A stretch of 64,000 nt of DNA, taken from Arboricoccus pini (GTDB lineage: Bacteria > Pseudomonadota > Alphaproteobacteria > Geminicoccales > Geminicoccaceae). Position numbers and translations under genes: made by a program. The stretch's first letter is position 1; each line of letters opens with the position of its first letter. Location: positions 62,001-126,000 of the forward strand of contig NZ_FYEH01000002.1 of NCBI RefSeq assembly GCF_900187945.1. Direction: 5' to 3'. Below, piece by piece: positions 25,066-30,618 of the stretch. Below the pieces are notes generated by a model, which was not told where the DNA came from, did no database searches, and was given only the letters and a program-made list of their open reading frames with translations.

Positions 25066-25914
25066 TCAGTTCGCCATCAAGACAGGCAACTCGGCCTCGG
25101 CCAGGATATGGCTGGTCGCACCGCCGAAGATCATCTGTCTGAGGCGGCTTTGCGTGTAGGCTCCCTTGACCAATAAGTCGCACGACAAGTCGGCGGCCTC
25201 AGCCAGTAAGACTTGGCCCACGGAACGGTTGTTCAGGAGGACCTCTCGCCAATCGGCCGTAATGCCGTGGCGCCGCAACGCCAAAGCCGCTTCGGCGGCA
25301 CTCGGACCAGCGACGTTCCGCTCGACCGCAACAACGCTCACCTTCTGTGCCTGGCGAAGGAAGGGCATGGCGAATGCCATCGTGCGCGCGGTCTCCGTAC
25401 TGCCGTTCCAGGCAATCATGACATGCTCGCCTAGCGTGGGCGGGGCCACCGGTGGTGCAACCAGGATGGGCCTGCCGGTCTCGAACAAGGCCGACTCCAA
25501 GGCCGCCATGCTAGGTGCTACCGAATCCCTTAAGGGACGTCCTACCACGATCAGATCGAAGACACGGCCGATCGAGCCGATGGCCGATGGACCGTTGGCG
25601 GTCTCGATGCGCCAATCTGCCGACAGGCCGACCTTACCGTCGACGGGCCGGACGAGATGATGCTCGTGCATGAACGTCTCGAACGTCACGCGGGCTTTCT
25701 CCGCGCGGTCCTTGGCTTCCCGTTCGAACCCCGAGACAAGATCCGGAGCCGCGGCGACGAAACCATCGGCGCCCGCCGCGATGACGTCCGGCTGTCCGGG
25801 CCGCATATGTAGGCCTTCGATATAGCTGTCGAATCGTCGCCCCACCGCAAGCGCGCATCCCAGAACGGCGGGCAGGACGGCGCTAACCTCGAGGTGCGCG
25901 AGAATATTCTTCAC
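25066..25914 (-). CDS. Universal stress protein, tandem UspA domains
   Basis: Tandem Usp protein of 282 residues. The first domain covers about 1-150 and the second about 155-282. The second keeps a recognisable nucleotide-binding stretch, DLLVKGAYTQSRLRQMIFGGATSHIL; the first has a degenerate equivalent around VVGRPLRDSV. Members bind ATP or other ligands under stress; the specific role is unknown. The GTG at 25914 opens the protein with KNILAHLE, as in the family, and was preferred to the ATG at 25950. Confidence 0.85.
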   Translation of the reverse strand: MKNILAHLEVSAVLPAVLGCALAVGRRFDSYIEGLHMRPGQPDVIAAGADGFVAAAPDLVSGFEREAKDRAEKARVTFETFMHEHHLVRPVDGKVGLSADWRIETANGPSAIGSIGRVFDLIVVGRPLRDSVAPSMAALESALFETGRPILVAPPVAPPTLGEHVMIAWNGSTETARTMAFAMPFLRQAQKVSVVAVERNVAGPSAAEAALALRRHGITADWREVLLNNRSVGQVLLAEAADLSCDLLVKGAYTQSRLRQMIFGGATSHILAEAELPVLMAN

Positions 25915-25998
25915 CGGAGGTCTTCCTCGCTGTTCGCAGTCATGATGCAAGCGAGTTGAACCGAGAGCGTTGCGACCGTCAACTCGCTCCCCATCATG

Positions 25999-26730
25999 TC
26001 ATCCTGGTGGCGTCGGCTCTTCCTCGCATAGGCAGCGGTAGAGAATCGGCCGACGGTTGCTAGGCGGCGGTCCAGCGGCCACGCCAAGCTCGAATGAAAC
26101 CGACGATCCCGCCGCGGCGTGGATGCTTCCATCCGGCAGTGCAAGAATGAGATCCTGGCCGAAGCCGAGGCACGCAACGCCGTTCTCGATAGCTCTTGCT
26201 TGCGCGAGGATGCGCCAAGGACCGAGCTTGTCGGCCCGACCTACCCATAAAAGCAGTTCCGCGCCGCCAAGACGGAGCGCCCGAGCGACCTCAGGGTGGT
26301 CGAGATCCTTGCCCAGCAAAAGGCCTACCCGGCCCATGCGCCATGGCACGATCGTCATCCAGTTGCCGGCGCTGAAACCGCCGGCGATATCCCCGCCATC
26401 GGGATGCGTGCCGCGATAATTTGCCTGTGCTCCGCCCGTGTCGTCGACGAACGTCAAGGCGCGGTATTGCCGTCCCGTGCAGGTCTCCTTGTAAGCCCAG
26501 GCGACGTGAACGCCTCGTTCGCGGCAAGCCTGACCGAGCGTTTCGTGGGAACCCGAATCAGAAAGCAAGGGCGGACAGTGGTCGGAAGCGCGGACCAGGC
26601 AGAGATCGCCCGAAGTCGCGTCTGCAAGGACTTGGTGCCAAGCCTCAACTGTTCGCGGTTGGTGATCGGCGTCAATCGCGCGCACTCGCATCGTCGGGTC
26701 GCGATCGCTCAGTTCATGAAGGTGGTGCAT
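25999..26730 (-). CDS. Nitrilase-fold protein lacking the Glu-Lys-Cys catalytic triad (pseudoenzyme)
   Basis: 243-residue protein that aligns along its whole length with carbon-nitrogen hydrolases. Yet each catalytic position appears replaced. The first Glu region reads LVRASDHC instead of the usual strand ending in PE. The Lys motif reads NYRGTHP instead of YRKTHL. The nucleophile elbow reads GLLLGKDLDHPEVARAL, with Gly where Cys is expected. Flanking fold elements (LRLGGAELLLW, ARAIENGVACLGFG) are well kept and the frame is intact, so this looks like a functional non-enzyme rather than a pseudogene. ATG at 26730 or 26691 are possible starts. It lies between a stress-protein gene and divergent degP. 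Role unknown. Confidence 0.75.
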   Translation of the reverse strand: MHHLHELSDRDPTMRVRAIDADHQPRTVEAWHQVLADATSGDLCLVRASDHCPPLLSDSGSHETLGQACRERGVHVAWAYKETCTGRQYRALTFVDDTGGAQANYRGTHPDGGDIAGGFSAGNWMTIVPWRMGRVGLLLGKDLDHPEVARALRLGGAELLLWVGRADKLGPWRILAQARAIENGVACLGFGQDLILALPDGSIHAAAGSSVSFELGVAAGPPPSNRRPILYRCLCEEEPTPPG

Positions 26731-26872
26731 TTTTCACCAAAAAGCCAATGAACGGCCATTTTCATGAACTATATCTCCTCTGGATGGTGATGCTGGATGT
26801 CGATTGGGTGCACGGTTCTGAACACCCGACGCCCCTATCACCAATATTATTCTCGCCAGATGGGTAAATGCC

Positions 26873-28390
26873 ATGGCTGCTCAAAAGGATAGCTTCTTGA
26901 CTCGTGGTGCTTTGCGGCGGATCCGCCTCTTGAGCGTGGTGTCCGGGGCCACCTTGCTTGTGGCGACCGGTGCCGTCGTGCCGTTTACCGGGCATGTGGC
27001 CCAGGCTCAGACGGAAACCAGCAGTTCGGCCGATCGCTACAACGATTCCTATGCCGATCTCGTTCAGCGCGTCATGCCGGCGGTCGTTAACGTCTCTGTC
27101 GAAAAGACCGAACAGGTGGATGCCGAGCGCACGCCTTTGGACGACCCTGAGATGCGCCGTTTCTTTGAGCGTTTCTTCGGTCAGCAGATGCCAGCTCCAG
27201 ATCAGCGGTCTCACTCGGAACGGGAGTTGGGCGAAGGTTCGGGCTTCGTGATCTCGAAAGACGGTTACATCGTGACCAACGCCCATGTGGCAGGCGGCGC
27301 GTCGAAGATCGAGGTCTCCTTCCAGGATGGCACGAAGCTTCCGGCTACGCTGAAGGGCATCGACGAAAAGACGGATCTAGCCGTCCTCAAGGTCGAGGCG
27401 CATAAAGATTTGACCTTCGTCTCGTTCGGCGACAGTAGCAAGGTTCGCGTCGGCGACAAGGTGCTGGCCGTCGGCAACCCCTTCGGCCTGGGTGGCACAG
27501 TGACGGCTGGCATCATCTCGGCCACGCAACGCGAGATTGGTGCCGGGCCGTATGACGACTTCCTTCAGGTCGATGCAGCGATCAACCGCGGCAATTCCGG
27601 CGGCCCGACCTTCAACCTGAACGGCCAGGTCATCGGCATCAACAGCATGATCTTCTCGCCGTCGGGCGGCAGCATCGGCATCGGCTTCGCGATCTCGTCG
27701 AATCTTGCCAAATCGGTCATTCAGCAGCTGACCGACGATGGTAAGGTCGATCGTGGTTGGCTGGGTGTGGGCATTCAGCCGGTGGATGAGGATATCGCCT
27801 CCAGCCTCGGCCTCAAGAAGGCAAGCGGCGCCCTTGTGAGCAAGGTGGAAGAAGGCAGCCCCGCTGAGGCGGCTGGCCTCAAGACCGGTGATGTGATCGT
27901 CGGCTTCAACGGCAAGGCAGTCGAGAAGGTGCGCGACCTCACCCGCGCGGTCGCTGACACAAAGCCAGGCAGCACAGAATCACTGGACGTCGTTTCAGGC
28001 GGTTCGACTCGTAGCGTCAAAGTTAATATTGGCGAGATGCCGACAGATACCACCAAGGTGGCCGCAAACGATCAGGATGGAAGCAAGTCGCAGGCCAAGA
28101 TCGGCTTGGCGCTGGCGCCGCTCTCACCTGATCTTCGCAAACAATTGAACCTGCCGGCGACGGCTAAGGGAGTGGTTGTCAGCGACGTCGAGGATGGCAG
28201 CCCGGCCGCATCCAAGGGCATCCAGGCCGGTGATCTCATTCTCAAGGTAGGCGACAAAGCCGTGTCGCGCCCGGAAGACGTGGTCAAGGCGATCACGGCG
28301 GCCCGGGAGCGTGGTGAAAAGGCCGTCTTGATGCTCTTTCAACGCGACGGCGCCCAGCTCTTTGCGGCTGTTCCTTTCTCCGTGTCTTGA
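26873..28390 (+). CDS. degP: Do/DegP-type periplasmic serine endoprotease
   Basis: HtrA-family protease of 505 residues for periplasmic protein quality control. A signal peptide or anchor covers about 15-46 (hydrophobic run, then AQAQ). The trypsin-like domain has the full triad: H138 in TNAHV, D168 in KTDLAVLK, and S242 in RGNSGGP. Two PDZ domains follow (about 280-370 and 405-500), each starting from a GLG/GLA strand and containing GSPAEAAGLKTGD or GSPAASKGIQAGD. It precedes a response regulator and kinase on the same strand, an envelope-stress style layout. The 142-base upstream region has no promoter I can assign with confidence. Confidence 0.95.
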   Translation: MAAQKDSFLTRGALRRIRLLSVVSGATLLVATGAVVPFTGHVAQAQTETSSSADRYNDSYADLVQRVMPAVVNVSVEKTEQVDAERTPLDDPEMRRFFERFFGQQMPAPDQRSHSERELGEGSGFVISKDGYIVTNAHVAGGASKIEVSFQDGTKLPATLKGIDEKTDLAVLKVEAHKDLTFVSFGDSSKVRVGDKVLAVGNPFGLGGTVTAGIISATQREIGAGPYDDFLQVDAAINRGNSGGPTFNLNGQVIGINSMIFSPSGGSIGIGFAISSNLAKSVIQQLTDDGKVDRGWLGVGIQPVDEDIASSLGLKKASGALVSKVEEGSPAEAAGLKTGDVIVGFNGKAVEKVRDLTRAVADTKPGSTESLDVVSGGSTRSVKVNIGEMPTDTTKVAANDQDGSKSQAKIGLALAPLSPDLRKQLNLPATAKGVVVSDVEDGSPAASKGIQAGDLILKVGDKAVSRPEDVVKAITAARERGEKAVLMLFQRDGAQLFAAVPFSVS

Positions 28391-28496: not shown

Positions 28497-29252
28497 GTGC
28501 AAGTATCCACGCTAAACAGCCCTGTTGCTAAACCGGTGAGCGCTGCGCAAAAGACCATGCGAACCCTGGTAATCGAAGACGACAAGGACGCGGCCGCCTA
28601 TATGGCCAAGGGTCTTTCCGAAAGTGGCCACACGGTCGAGGTGGCGCATAATGGCAAGGACGGTCTGCTTTTGGCGGCGACCGAAGGTTTCGACGTGCTC
28701 GTCGTCGATCGCATGCTGCCGGGCCTCGATGGTCTCAACCTCGTCAAGACCTTGCGAGCTACCGGCAATCGGACTCCCGTTCTATTTCTCAGTGCGCTGG
28801 GCGAGGTTGACGATCGGGTCAAGGGATTGCGCGCCGGGGGTGACGATTATCTCGTCAAACCTTACGCATTCTCCGAACTCCTGGCGCGCCTCGAGGCACT
28901 CGTCCGTCGACGCGCCACCGAGTCCAATGATGGACGCGAAACGATCCTTCGCTATGTCGACCTGTCGATGGATTTGCTTTCCCGGAGAGTCGAGCGGGGC
29001 GGCAAGGAAATTGAACTGCAGCCGAGAGAATTTAAAATTCTCGAAGTATTGATGCGGCATCCCGGTCAGGTCATGACACGCACGATGCTCTTGGAAAAAG
29101 TCTGGGATTATCGATTCGATCCGCAGACTAATGTCATTGACGTCCACATCTCTCGACTGCGGCAGAAAATCGATCGCGGCTATGAATATCCCCTCATCCA
29201 CACGGTCAGGGGCGCCGGGTACAGCCTCAGGGCTCCGGACAAGGCTTCTTAA
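28497..29252 (+). CDS. OmpR/PhoB family response regulator
   Basis: Two-domain regulator of 251 residues. The receiver domain (about 22-140) has the acidic pair in VIEDDKD, the phospho-acceptor D71 in VVDRMLPGLDG, and the conserved Lys in YLVKPYAF. The winged-helix DNA-binding domain (about 150-248) has QPREFKILEVLM and the recognition region VIDVHISRLRQKI. The GTG at 28497 has GGGAG 8 bases upstream; an internal ATG at 28557 would also give a complete receiver. The kinase gene overlaps its 3' end. The pair resembles the RagA/RagB-type systems that follow degP in other alphaproteobacteria; the signal is unknown. Confidence 0.92.
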   Translation: MQVSTLNSPVAKPVSAAQKTMRTLVIEDDKDAAAYMAKGLSESGHTVEVAHNGKDGLLLAATEGFDVLVVDRMLPGLDGLNLVKTLRATGNRTPVLFLSALGEVDDRVKGLRAGGDDYLVKPYAFSELLARLEALVRRRATESNDGRETILRYVDLSMDLLSRRVERGGKEIELQPREFKILEVLMRHPGQVMTRTMLLEKVWDYRFDPQTNVIDVHISRLRQKIDRGYEYPLIHTVRGAGYSLRAPDKAS

Positions 29253-30618
29253 ATCTTCGACTTTTCGCCTCACCGCGGTCTACCTTCTGGTCTTCGGTCT
29301 ATCGGCTCTGGCTCTCCTCGCGTTTGTCTACGGTCTGGCCTCCAGCTTCATGGAGCGTCAGACGATGGAAACTATCGACGCGGAGATTCAGGGGCTCGAC
29401 GAGCAGAGCCAGCAACAGGGGATCTTGGGCCTCAAGCGCATCATCGAGCAGCGATCAAGCATCGAGGGTGACCCTGATCGGATGGGCATCTACCTGCTCG
29501 TCGATTGGGACGGAAATTACGTTGCCGGGAACCTGCCGCACTGGCCGGACGCGGATCTCCTTCCTGATTCGACGCTGCGTTTCAGCTTCGAGACCGTCGC
29601 GTCCAACAATCGCGTCATCCAGCGCTGGGTGTCGGCCAAGGCGTTCGTCGTCAGTCAGAAATTCCGCCTTCTTGTGGGACGCGACATCACCGAAAAGCAA
29701 CGCACTCAGCAGTTGCTCTGGAGTTCGGTCCTGGTCGGCACGAGTGTCATGATCCTGCTCGGCCTCGGTGGCGGCTTCGTTGTAAGCCGGTGGACGTTGG
29801 GCCGGATCGAGCTGATCAATCGGACGACTACCGCCATCATGGGGGGCAACCTCGGCAAGCGCATCCAGGTCGAGGGCGGCGGCGACGAGTTTGACGAACT
29901 CGCAACGAACCTAAATGCCATGCTGGAGCGTATACAACGACTTCTGGCTGGCATGCGGGAAGTCACTGACAATATCGCGCATGACCTTAGAACCCCACTC
30001 TCGCGCATCCGCTCGCGCATTGAGGTGGCGATGATGCACGACCTGAGCAGTGCCGAGGCGCATGAGTTGCTCGAGGCTACGGTACAAGATGCGGATAAGC
30101 TGATCGAAACATTCAATGCGTTGTTGAACATCGCCCGCGCAGAAGCGGGTAGCCAGCGTTCGGAATGGGAGGAGATCGGCCTCTGTGATCTGGCGCGTGA
30201 TGTTGTCGAGCTTTACGAACCACTAGCCGAGGTCAAGAACATTACTTTGCGACTCGAAGCCAAGGAAGGTGTGTCAATCATCGGCAGCCGCCAACTGGTC
30301 GCGCAGGCGCTGGCCAACATCACCGACAACGCCATCAAATACACACCAGAGAACGGGGTCGTAACGGTTACCATCAGCGACGAGCCCTCTCCCACGATTC
30401 TCGTTGCCGATAACGGACCGGGCATCGCGGCTAATCTTCGAGAGAAGGCTCTCGAGCGGTTTGTCCGCCTCGATCCCGATCGCTCCTCACCTGGAAACGG
30501 GCTCGGTTTAAGCCTGGTGAGCGCGGTTGCGAGGCTGCATGAGGCGAAGCTGACACTCGACGACAATAATCCCGGCTTGCGGATCGCGATCAGTTTTCGG
30601 CGTCCGTCAAGTCGCTGA
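29182..30618 (+). CDS. HAMP-domain sensor histidine kinase
   Basis: Inner-membrane kinase, partner of the upstream regulator. Two membrane helices (one near LTAVYLLVFGLSALALLAFV, one near SVLVGTSVMILLGLGGGFVV) bracket a periplasmic domain of about 130 residues. A HAMP linker follows, then HisKA with the phospho-His in NIAHDLRTPLSRIRSR, and an HATPase domain with N box NAIKYT, DNGPGI and GNGLGLSLV. The start is unclear: ATG at 29182 gives 478 residues and overlaps the regulator by 71 bases; an earlier ATG at 29131 is also in frame. Neither has a good ribosome binding site, so coupling to the upstream gene is likely. Confidence 0.9.
   Translation: MNIPSSTRSGAPGTASGLRTRLLKSSTFRLTAVYLLVFGLSALALLAFVYGLASSFMERQTMETIDAEIQGLDEQSQQQGILGLKRIIEQRSSIEGDPDRMGIYLLVDWDGNYVAGNLPHWPDADLLPDSTLRFSFETVASNNRVIQRWVSAKAFVVSQKFRLLVGRDITEKQRTQQLLWSSVLVGTSVMILLGLGGGFVVSRWTLGRIELINRTTTAIMGGNLGKRIQVEGGGDEFDELATNLNAMLERIQRLLAGMREVTDNIAHDLRTPLSRIRSRIEVAMMHDLSSAEAHELLEATVQDADKLIETFNALLNIARAEAGSQRSEWEEIGLCDLARDVVELYEPLAEVKNITLRLEAKEGVSIIGSRQLVAQALANITDNAIKYTPENGVVTVTISDEPSPTILVADNGPGIAANLREKALERFVRLDPDRSSPGNGLGLSLVSAVARLHEAKLTLDDNNPGLRIAISFRRPSSR

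Follow-up and report, generated by a model that had tools for sequence, protein, structure and literature searches.

A predicted nitrilase-fold pseudoenzyme family conserved at a stress locus of the Geminicoccales

The window (the whole stretch of DNA analyzed, 64,000 nucleotides) carries a gene for a nitrilase-like protein, here called the pseudo-nitrilase, which by its sequence is a member of a conserved pseudoenzyme family in a stress locus and not a one-off. The explanation that we lean toward, with some confidence, is a lineage-specific family of nitrilase-fold pseudoenzymes that would be kept at this locus as a non-catalytic binding partner or scaffold. Its computed part, namely fold, triad loss, a single clade, conserved position, and purifying selection, is supported by the data below, and the role itself is the most likely one given the synteny and the conserved parts of the protein.

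Results

An open frame with a nitrilase fold and a replaced triad

As an earlier note on this DNA had proposed from the sequence, the frame is open on the minus strand and is flanked by a universal stress protein (USP) gene and a divergent degP (Table 1). Because the orthologues begin with MRVA or MRIA, which align with Met14 of the window frame, Met14 is probably the true start. The alignment also bears out the proposed replacement of the catalytic Glu, Lys, and Cys by Ala48, Gly107, and Gly140, where Ala48 is an ungapped reading by eye and the alignment program inserts a gap at the old Glu position; an intact Glu-Lys-Cys triad elsewhere in the sequence was looked for in the alignments and none was found. 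Tested for membership among the catalytic nitrilases and amidases, the window protein thus fails at the triad, where it reads Ala/Gly/Gly.

Table 1. Coordinates of the pseudo-nitrilase gene, its former catalytic positions, and its neighbors in the window
Feature	Position	Strand	Remarks
Pseudo-nitrilase ORF	25999..26730	minus	ATG start, 243 aa; likely start Met14 at 26691 (230 aa, 25999-26691)
Ala48, old catalytic Glu position	26587..26589	minus	Ungapped reading, DLCLVRA vs DLLVLPE
Gly107, old catalytic Lys position	26410..26412	minus	NYRGTHP vs NYRKxHL
Trp124	26359..26361	minus	Invariant in 22/22 members; 18 Cys-bearing sister amidases have no consensus residue there
Gly140, old catalytic Cys position	26311..26313	minus	GLLLGKDLDHPE vs GLLICYDVEFPE
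Universal stress protein gene	25066..25950	minus	Downstream, same strand; Pfam Usp E 9.5e-7
Divergent intergenic region, pseudo-nitrilase (Met14 start) to degP	26692..26872		
degP/HtrA-type protease gene	26873..28390	plus	Trypsin-like and PDZ domains in an orthologue
OmpR-type response regulator (RR)	28497..29252	plus	Pfam of an orthologue
Sensor histidine kinase (HK)	29131..30618	plus	Longest frame, true start probably further in; Pfam of an orthologue

In Pfam-A, the window protein matches CN_hydrolase (PF00795) with an E value of 2.9e-9 to 3.3e-9 and 36.9 bits (cut-off, 23.2), and the same family is matched by all 22 aligned members at E ≤0.001; among the 12 CN_hydrolase matches of its own genome, the pseudo-nitrilase is the second weakest. 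The earlier statement that the protein aligns end to end with carbon-nitrogen hydrolases does not hold by Pfam alone, which covers residues 62-201 only, but it does hold by the orthologue profile (positions 1-244, in a profile that includes the window protein itself) and by the match of an AlphaFold model to solved CN hydrolases (residues 1-224). This AlphaFold2 model, run with 24 sequences and beginning at Met14, has a pLDDT of 84.9 and a pTM of 0.82, with poor prediction at residues 214-226, and its best structural neighbors over residues 1-224 in Foldseek and VIA are solved CN hydrolases (best VIA Z, 23.3). As modeled, then, the window protein is a member of the nitrilase superfamily with the CN_hydrolase fold.

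Orthologues across the order and their place in the nitrilase tree

An orthologue is present in 23 of 31 Geminicoccales genomes and in 11 of 16 genera, the same 31 genomes being the sample for both family and order; 22 of the orthologues are full length and one is a contig-edge fragment (G013). The family profile, which was built with the members that it scores, gives the full-length members at least 216 bits and the next matches in the 31 genomes at most 169 bits. Of these next matches, the ones read (L004 and L032-L038) retain the Cys, the C-terminal domain of a tandem protein (L003, about 106 bits or less) does not have it, and the fragment (165 bits) is a member by sequence and by its USP neighbor. 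The earlier note had suggested looking for replacements common to several genera, and this is what we observed: the Cys is lost in 11 of the 16 genera and absent from all 23 orthologues, so that the opposite outcome, orthologues that all keep the triad beside a decaying window copy, did not occur. No orthologue was found in the other eight of the 31 genomes (G001, G003, G007, G010, G011, G018, G026, and G027), and several of these assemblies are fragmented. Given this absence, which includes a genome (G007) where the USP gene and degP face each other, the pseudo-nitrilase is dispensable.

Outside this sample, a scan of named-genome contigs with the single protein returned no relative. A scan with a 7-row alignment of closer members (A2) and two peptide patterns yielded eight member loci, four of them titled Geminicoccaceae, a family placed by NCBI in the order Geminicoccales of the Alphaproteobacteria, and one titled Marinimicrococcus flavescens. 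In a class sample of 385 genomes, 17 matched at E 1e-40, of which 4 belong to the family itself and the other 13, at 144.5 to 164.2 bits, all retain the Cys. In a phylum sample of 398 genomes, 15 matched at E 1e-42, namely, the window's own and 14 others at no more than 179.9 bits; the Cys was retained in all 7 of these 14 that were read (including G058 and G072). At most six or seven candidates per genome were scored in these two samples, and a divergent member elsewhere is possible.

The 22 full-length members form one clade (SH-aLRT, 100) beside Cys-bearing amidases in a quick tree of 66 rows, which is unrooted and was computed with the three triad columns masked, and the same clade was recovered by FastTree from 128 rows with a support of 1.0. 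We take the neighboring branch to be DavA-like (5-aminovaleramide amidohydrolase), a provisional label for an alignment that has no reference DavA. The clade and the DavA-like branch lie together on one side of a branch with an SH-aLRT of 100, and both a sister and a nested position of the clade fit the unrooted tree. The branch leading to the window copy is long (1.35 in the quick tree).

A dismantled catalytic region around a kept core

At the old Cys position, the 23 orthologues carry Gly (21), Ala (1), or Asp (1), of which 22 were assigned by alignment and the Asp of the fragment was read by eye. Among the 22 full-length members, the Lys is lost in 21 and kept only in L012, with Arg in its place in 14, and the Glu is lost in 8 and kept in 14. 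A retained Glu is combined with a Lys-to-Arg replacement in 11 members and with the Lys itself in L012 alone. One could argue from the 14 retained Glu residues, and from the one member that has both Glu and Lys, for an active enzyme with a relocated nucleophile or a different chemistry. However, none of the 16 columns that are invariant in the 22 members is Ser, Thr, or Cys, so there is no obvious replacement nucleophile, and the replaced Cys position itself varies among Gly, Ala, and Asp; we find an active enzyme hardly credible. The non-catalytic nature of these predicted pseudoenzymes is well supported by their sequences.

The losses extend beyond the triad. The clade has also lost several residues at which the sister amidases show little or no variation: Gln7, the Gly-Tyr that follows PE, the Pro-Thr-Ala that follows the fifth helix, and, in later strands, Asn, Gly, and Ser. 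Several of these presumably line the substrate pocket, and some stretches that are shorter in the clade alignment are ones that we likewise assume to be pocket-lining. Glu82, Gly99, Arg106, Gly122, Asp142, PE146-147, Gly156, and Arg179-Ala180 (ORF numbering) are retained in both the clade and the 18 Cys-bearing sisters, and the best-kept parts include the helices PEVARAL and RARAxEN and the C-terminal tail RRPxLY, whose conservation is 0.86 to 1.0 in the clade versus 0.44 to 0.89 in the sister amidases. With core residues retained and losses around the catalytic site, the core has therefore been kept while the catalytic region has been dismantled.

This pattern bears on the possibility that the protein is a ligand-sensing pseudoenzyme, whose old pocket would bind an amide-like or acyl ligand without turnover and report to the stress locus. 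Fold and position are kept, and the frequent retention of Glu, often with a change of Lys to Arg, means that some members may still have a charged pocket. On the other hand, the non-triad residues and presumed pocket stretches just described are lost or shortened across the clade, and in the window copy all three catalytic side chains are gone. The kept core helices and RRPxLY are no less compatible with a structural role, or one in binding a partner, than with ligand sensing. A classical ligand sensor is, in our judgment, unlikely, and our preference is for a protein that acts as partner or scaffold within the USP-DegP locus.

Purifying selection in a fast-evolving gene

In all nine close pairs chosen, dN/dS (NG86) lies between 0.32 and 0.50; that is, purifying selection, as looked for in a pseudoenzyme, was seen in the nine pairs, which partly share members and are not nine independent tests, and which do not include the window copy, as it has no close relative. 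The gene evolves faster than all four of its neighbors: the median identity to the window copy, taken over copies longer than 70% of its length, is 0.38 for the pseudo-nitrilase (n = 16), compared with 0.66 for the USP (n = 16), 0.53 for DegP (n = 17), 0.56 for the HK (n = 19), and 0.82 for the RR (n = 19). Its GC3 is 0.66, versus 0.72 to 0.75 in three neighbors.

Fast evolution, the long window branch, the eight genomes in which the gene was not found, and the lower GC3 could all be signs of a decaying pseudogene, an amidase gene that has lost its function and is eroding. There is a precedent in a poplar nitrilase homologue without the triad, which its authors assumed to be a pseudogene (PMC6196558). 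Such decay is difficult to reconcile with 22 open full-length frames in 11 genera, a conserved position, 16 invariant columns, and a dN/dS of no more than 0.50 in every pair, and for the family as a whole the pseudogene reading is largely refuted; we judge it very improbable. The gene probably encodes a functional protein that is not an enzyme, as opposed to being broken, and the pseudoenzyme reading of the earlier note gains support from the universal absence of the Cys (23/23), the single clade (SH-aLRT, 100), and the dN/dS values of the nine pairs.

A conserved position beside degP and a two-component system

The RR-HK pair is divergent from the pseudo-nitrilase in 21 of 21 neighborhoods and in G006, that is, in all 22 copies whose upstream side is visible. 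degP lies between them in 18 of the 21 loci and in G006 (19/22) and is missing there from the three genomes of genus g16. In 18 of the 21 loci (18/22 counting G006), a same-strand USP gene lies downstream, with a gap of at most 165 bp in 16 of these 18, the exceptions being L041 (1272 bp) and L051 (368 bp); the genes come from a G+C-frame gene caller, which makes starts and some gaps rough. In G007 (L221, G007:C12), no pseudo-nitrilase is called between the facing USP gene and degP, which makes this a natural empty site, and in three members of the same genus (G005, G006, and G008) the pseudo-nitrilase has no USP neighbor. From this comparison it follows that the two genes are separable.

The intergenic regions between pseudo-nitrilase and degP gave no shared regulatory motif in a crude 8-mer count. 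The commonest 8-mers are mostly G+C-rich, together with ACGTTGAC/GACGTTGA in 10 loci; the latter pair was rejected as a regulatory motif, since in 9 of the 10 loci it falls inside the called degP gene. A suspected association of ccm genes with degP where the pseudo-nitrilase is absent proved wrong in G001, the sole genome examined, which has a glycosyltransferase and an ABC ATPase there.

Farther along, past the histidine kinase, two genes recur in many Geminicoccales, for example, in L041, L042, L044, L045, L047, and L053: a class-V aminotransferase (cluster c6, 10/21 loci) and a HAD hydrolase (c7, 8/21). These clusters may serve 2-aminoethylphosphonate degradation, and neither occurs in the neighborhood of the window copy.

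Cys-to-Gly replacements in other nitrilases

Of the 66 loci returned by the scan with A2, 50 have Glu and Lys but Gly in place of Cys, and by title 49 of these are Chloroflexota and 1 is labeled Bacteroidetes. One of the two peptide patterns requires Gly where the Cys used to be, so this haul is biased toward Gly and silent on frequency. The Chloroflexota-type loci (L100-L152 except L102, L127, and L132) are well conserved, with the typical motif NIGLMIGYDLAFPEV, and L135 stands apart in the tree; in the 17 examined, genes resembling, by eye, RluD, nucleoside diphosphate kinase, and ComEA are often nearby. From their sequences, they are possibly a second pseudoenzyme family.

Tandem nitrilases provide further cases. 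In L003, from the genome of the window (G000:C5:407-2176, minus strand), the N-terminal domain is intact and the C-terminal domain has His, Gln, and Gly for Glu, Lys, and Cys. In L231-L233, from a search of 289 genomes that turned them up in three, all of one other family, the N-terminal domain is again intact and the C-terminal domain has Gly for Cys, with Glu and Lys kept. The same genome as that of the window also encodes a CN hydrolase (L005, G000:C14:133917-134699) with Lys and Cys kept and Ala at the aligned Glu (PALFE).

AU tests, performed on the quick tree for groups that had been named after the first FastTree was inspected, rejected one old clade of the Geminicoccales and Chloroflexota groups (p-AU, 0.014), one clade of the Geminicoccales group and the tandem C-terminal domain (0.010), and a single clade of all Cys-to-Gly groups (0.0013); a common clade of the Chloroflexota group and the tandem C-terminal domain was not rejected (0.256). 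With the Chloroflexota and tandem C-terminal groups lying outside the clade of the Geminicoccales family, nitrilase inactivation appears therefore to be recurrent.

Alternatively, the pseudoenzyme may be a regulatory subunit that pairs with and tunes one of the cell's active nitrilases, in the way conceivable for a pseudo-domain and an active domain within one chain. L003 offers such an arrangement within the same genome, and CN_hydrolase matches number 4 to 12 per genome across all 31. Yet the closest active relatives are patchy: in the six genomes of genus g12, with up to 88 candidates scored per genome, no family-profile match lies between the pseudoenzyme (292 to 301 bits) and 88 bits, and there is therefore no constant closest partner. 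We hold this alternative to be quite improbable.

Discussion

The course of events that we propose starts with one DavA-like amidase that would have lost its catalytic Cys in the Geminicoccales. The Cys-less gene would then have come to sit upstream of degP-RR-HK, with a USP gene behind it, and the non-catalytic protein would have been maintained since, its other catalytic residues eroding (Lys nearly everywhere, Glu in about one-third). The protein may form a nitrilase-like dimer through the conserved helices and tail and may act by binding. Most likely it would do so in the cytoplasm, where it would partner or scaffold the adjacent USP or another nitrilase-fold protein and so serve the stress response of the adjoining two-component system. 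Synteny is no proof of a common function for the pseudo-nitrilase and the stress genes, and both the dimer and the partner are putative. Fast evolution, the long window branch, and absence from 8 of 31 genomes stand against this explanation, as do the 4 of 22 copies without a USP neighbor and the 3 of 22 without degP in place. A broader idea is that the nitrilase fold has repeatedly been turned into non-catalytic regulators (the stress-locus partner of the Geminicoccales; the Chloroflexota proteins, in which the site is otherwise mostly retained; and the tandem C-terminal halves) and that the Geminicoccales protein and the USP would together, as one module, regulate the DegP two-component stress response; we offer it tentatively, as something rather doubtful.

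Pseudoenzymes occur in many enzyme families (PMC10211241), and searches of the open-access literature turned up no paper whose title or abstract describes a bacterial nitrilase pseudoenzyme family. Occurring across most of the order, always at the same locus, the pseudo-nitrilase family offers a clean handle, with a small gene and a natural deletion in G007, and it cautions that proteins annotated as carbon-nitrogen hydrolases may be inactive.

Among known systems, the DavA-like amidases are the nearest Cys-bearing relatives and share with the family RAxEN, an Arg and a His following the Lys loop, and D and PE following the Cys; unlike the pseudo-nitrilases, they keep Glu-Lys-Cys (18/18) and further invariant residues, and because the triad is absent from the window protein, its sequence was not filed as that of a DavA-type amidase. 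Of the solved relatives, NitN, an amidase from Nesterenkonia AN1, matches the window protein best by profile (5ny2; E, 1.9e-31) and gives a VIA Z of 21.8 against the model (3hkx), and mouse Nit2 (2w1v) is the best Foldseek match (E, 1.4e-13; VIA Z, 23.1); unlike the window protein, both are Cys enzymes, and entries titled C145A or E41Q are laboratory mutants. The Chloroflexota family has the Cys-to-Gly change in the same motif as the Geminicoccales family but, in 9 rows, retains Glu and Lys along with most of the remaining conserved residues; it forms a separate clade and has other gene neighbors. Altered triads (E-K-S and E-R-S) are also reported for cephalopod members of the vanin/symplectin family; these are, however, animal two-domain proteins, and according to the authors essentially all of them have conserved catalytic residues (PMC5541922).
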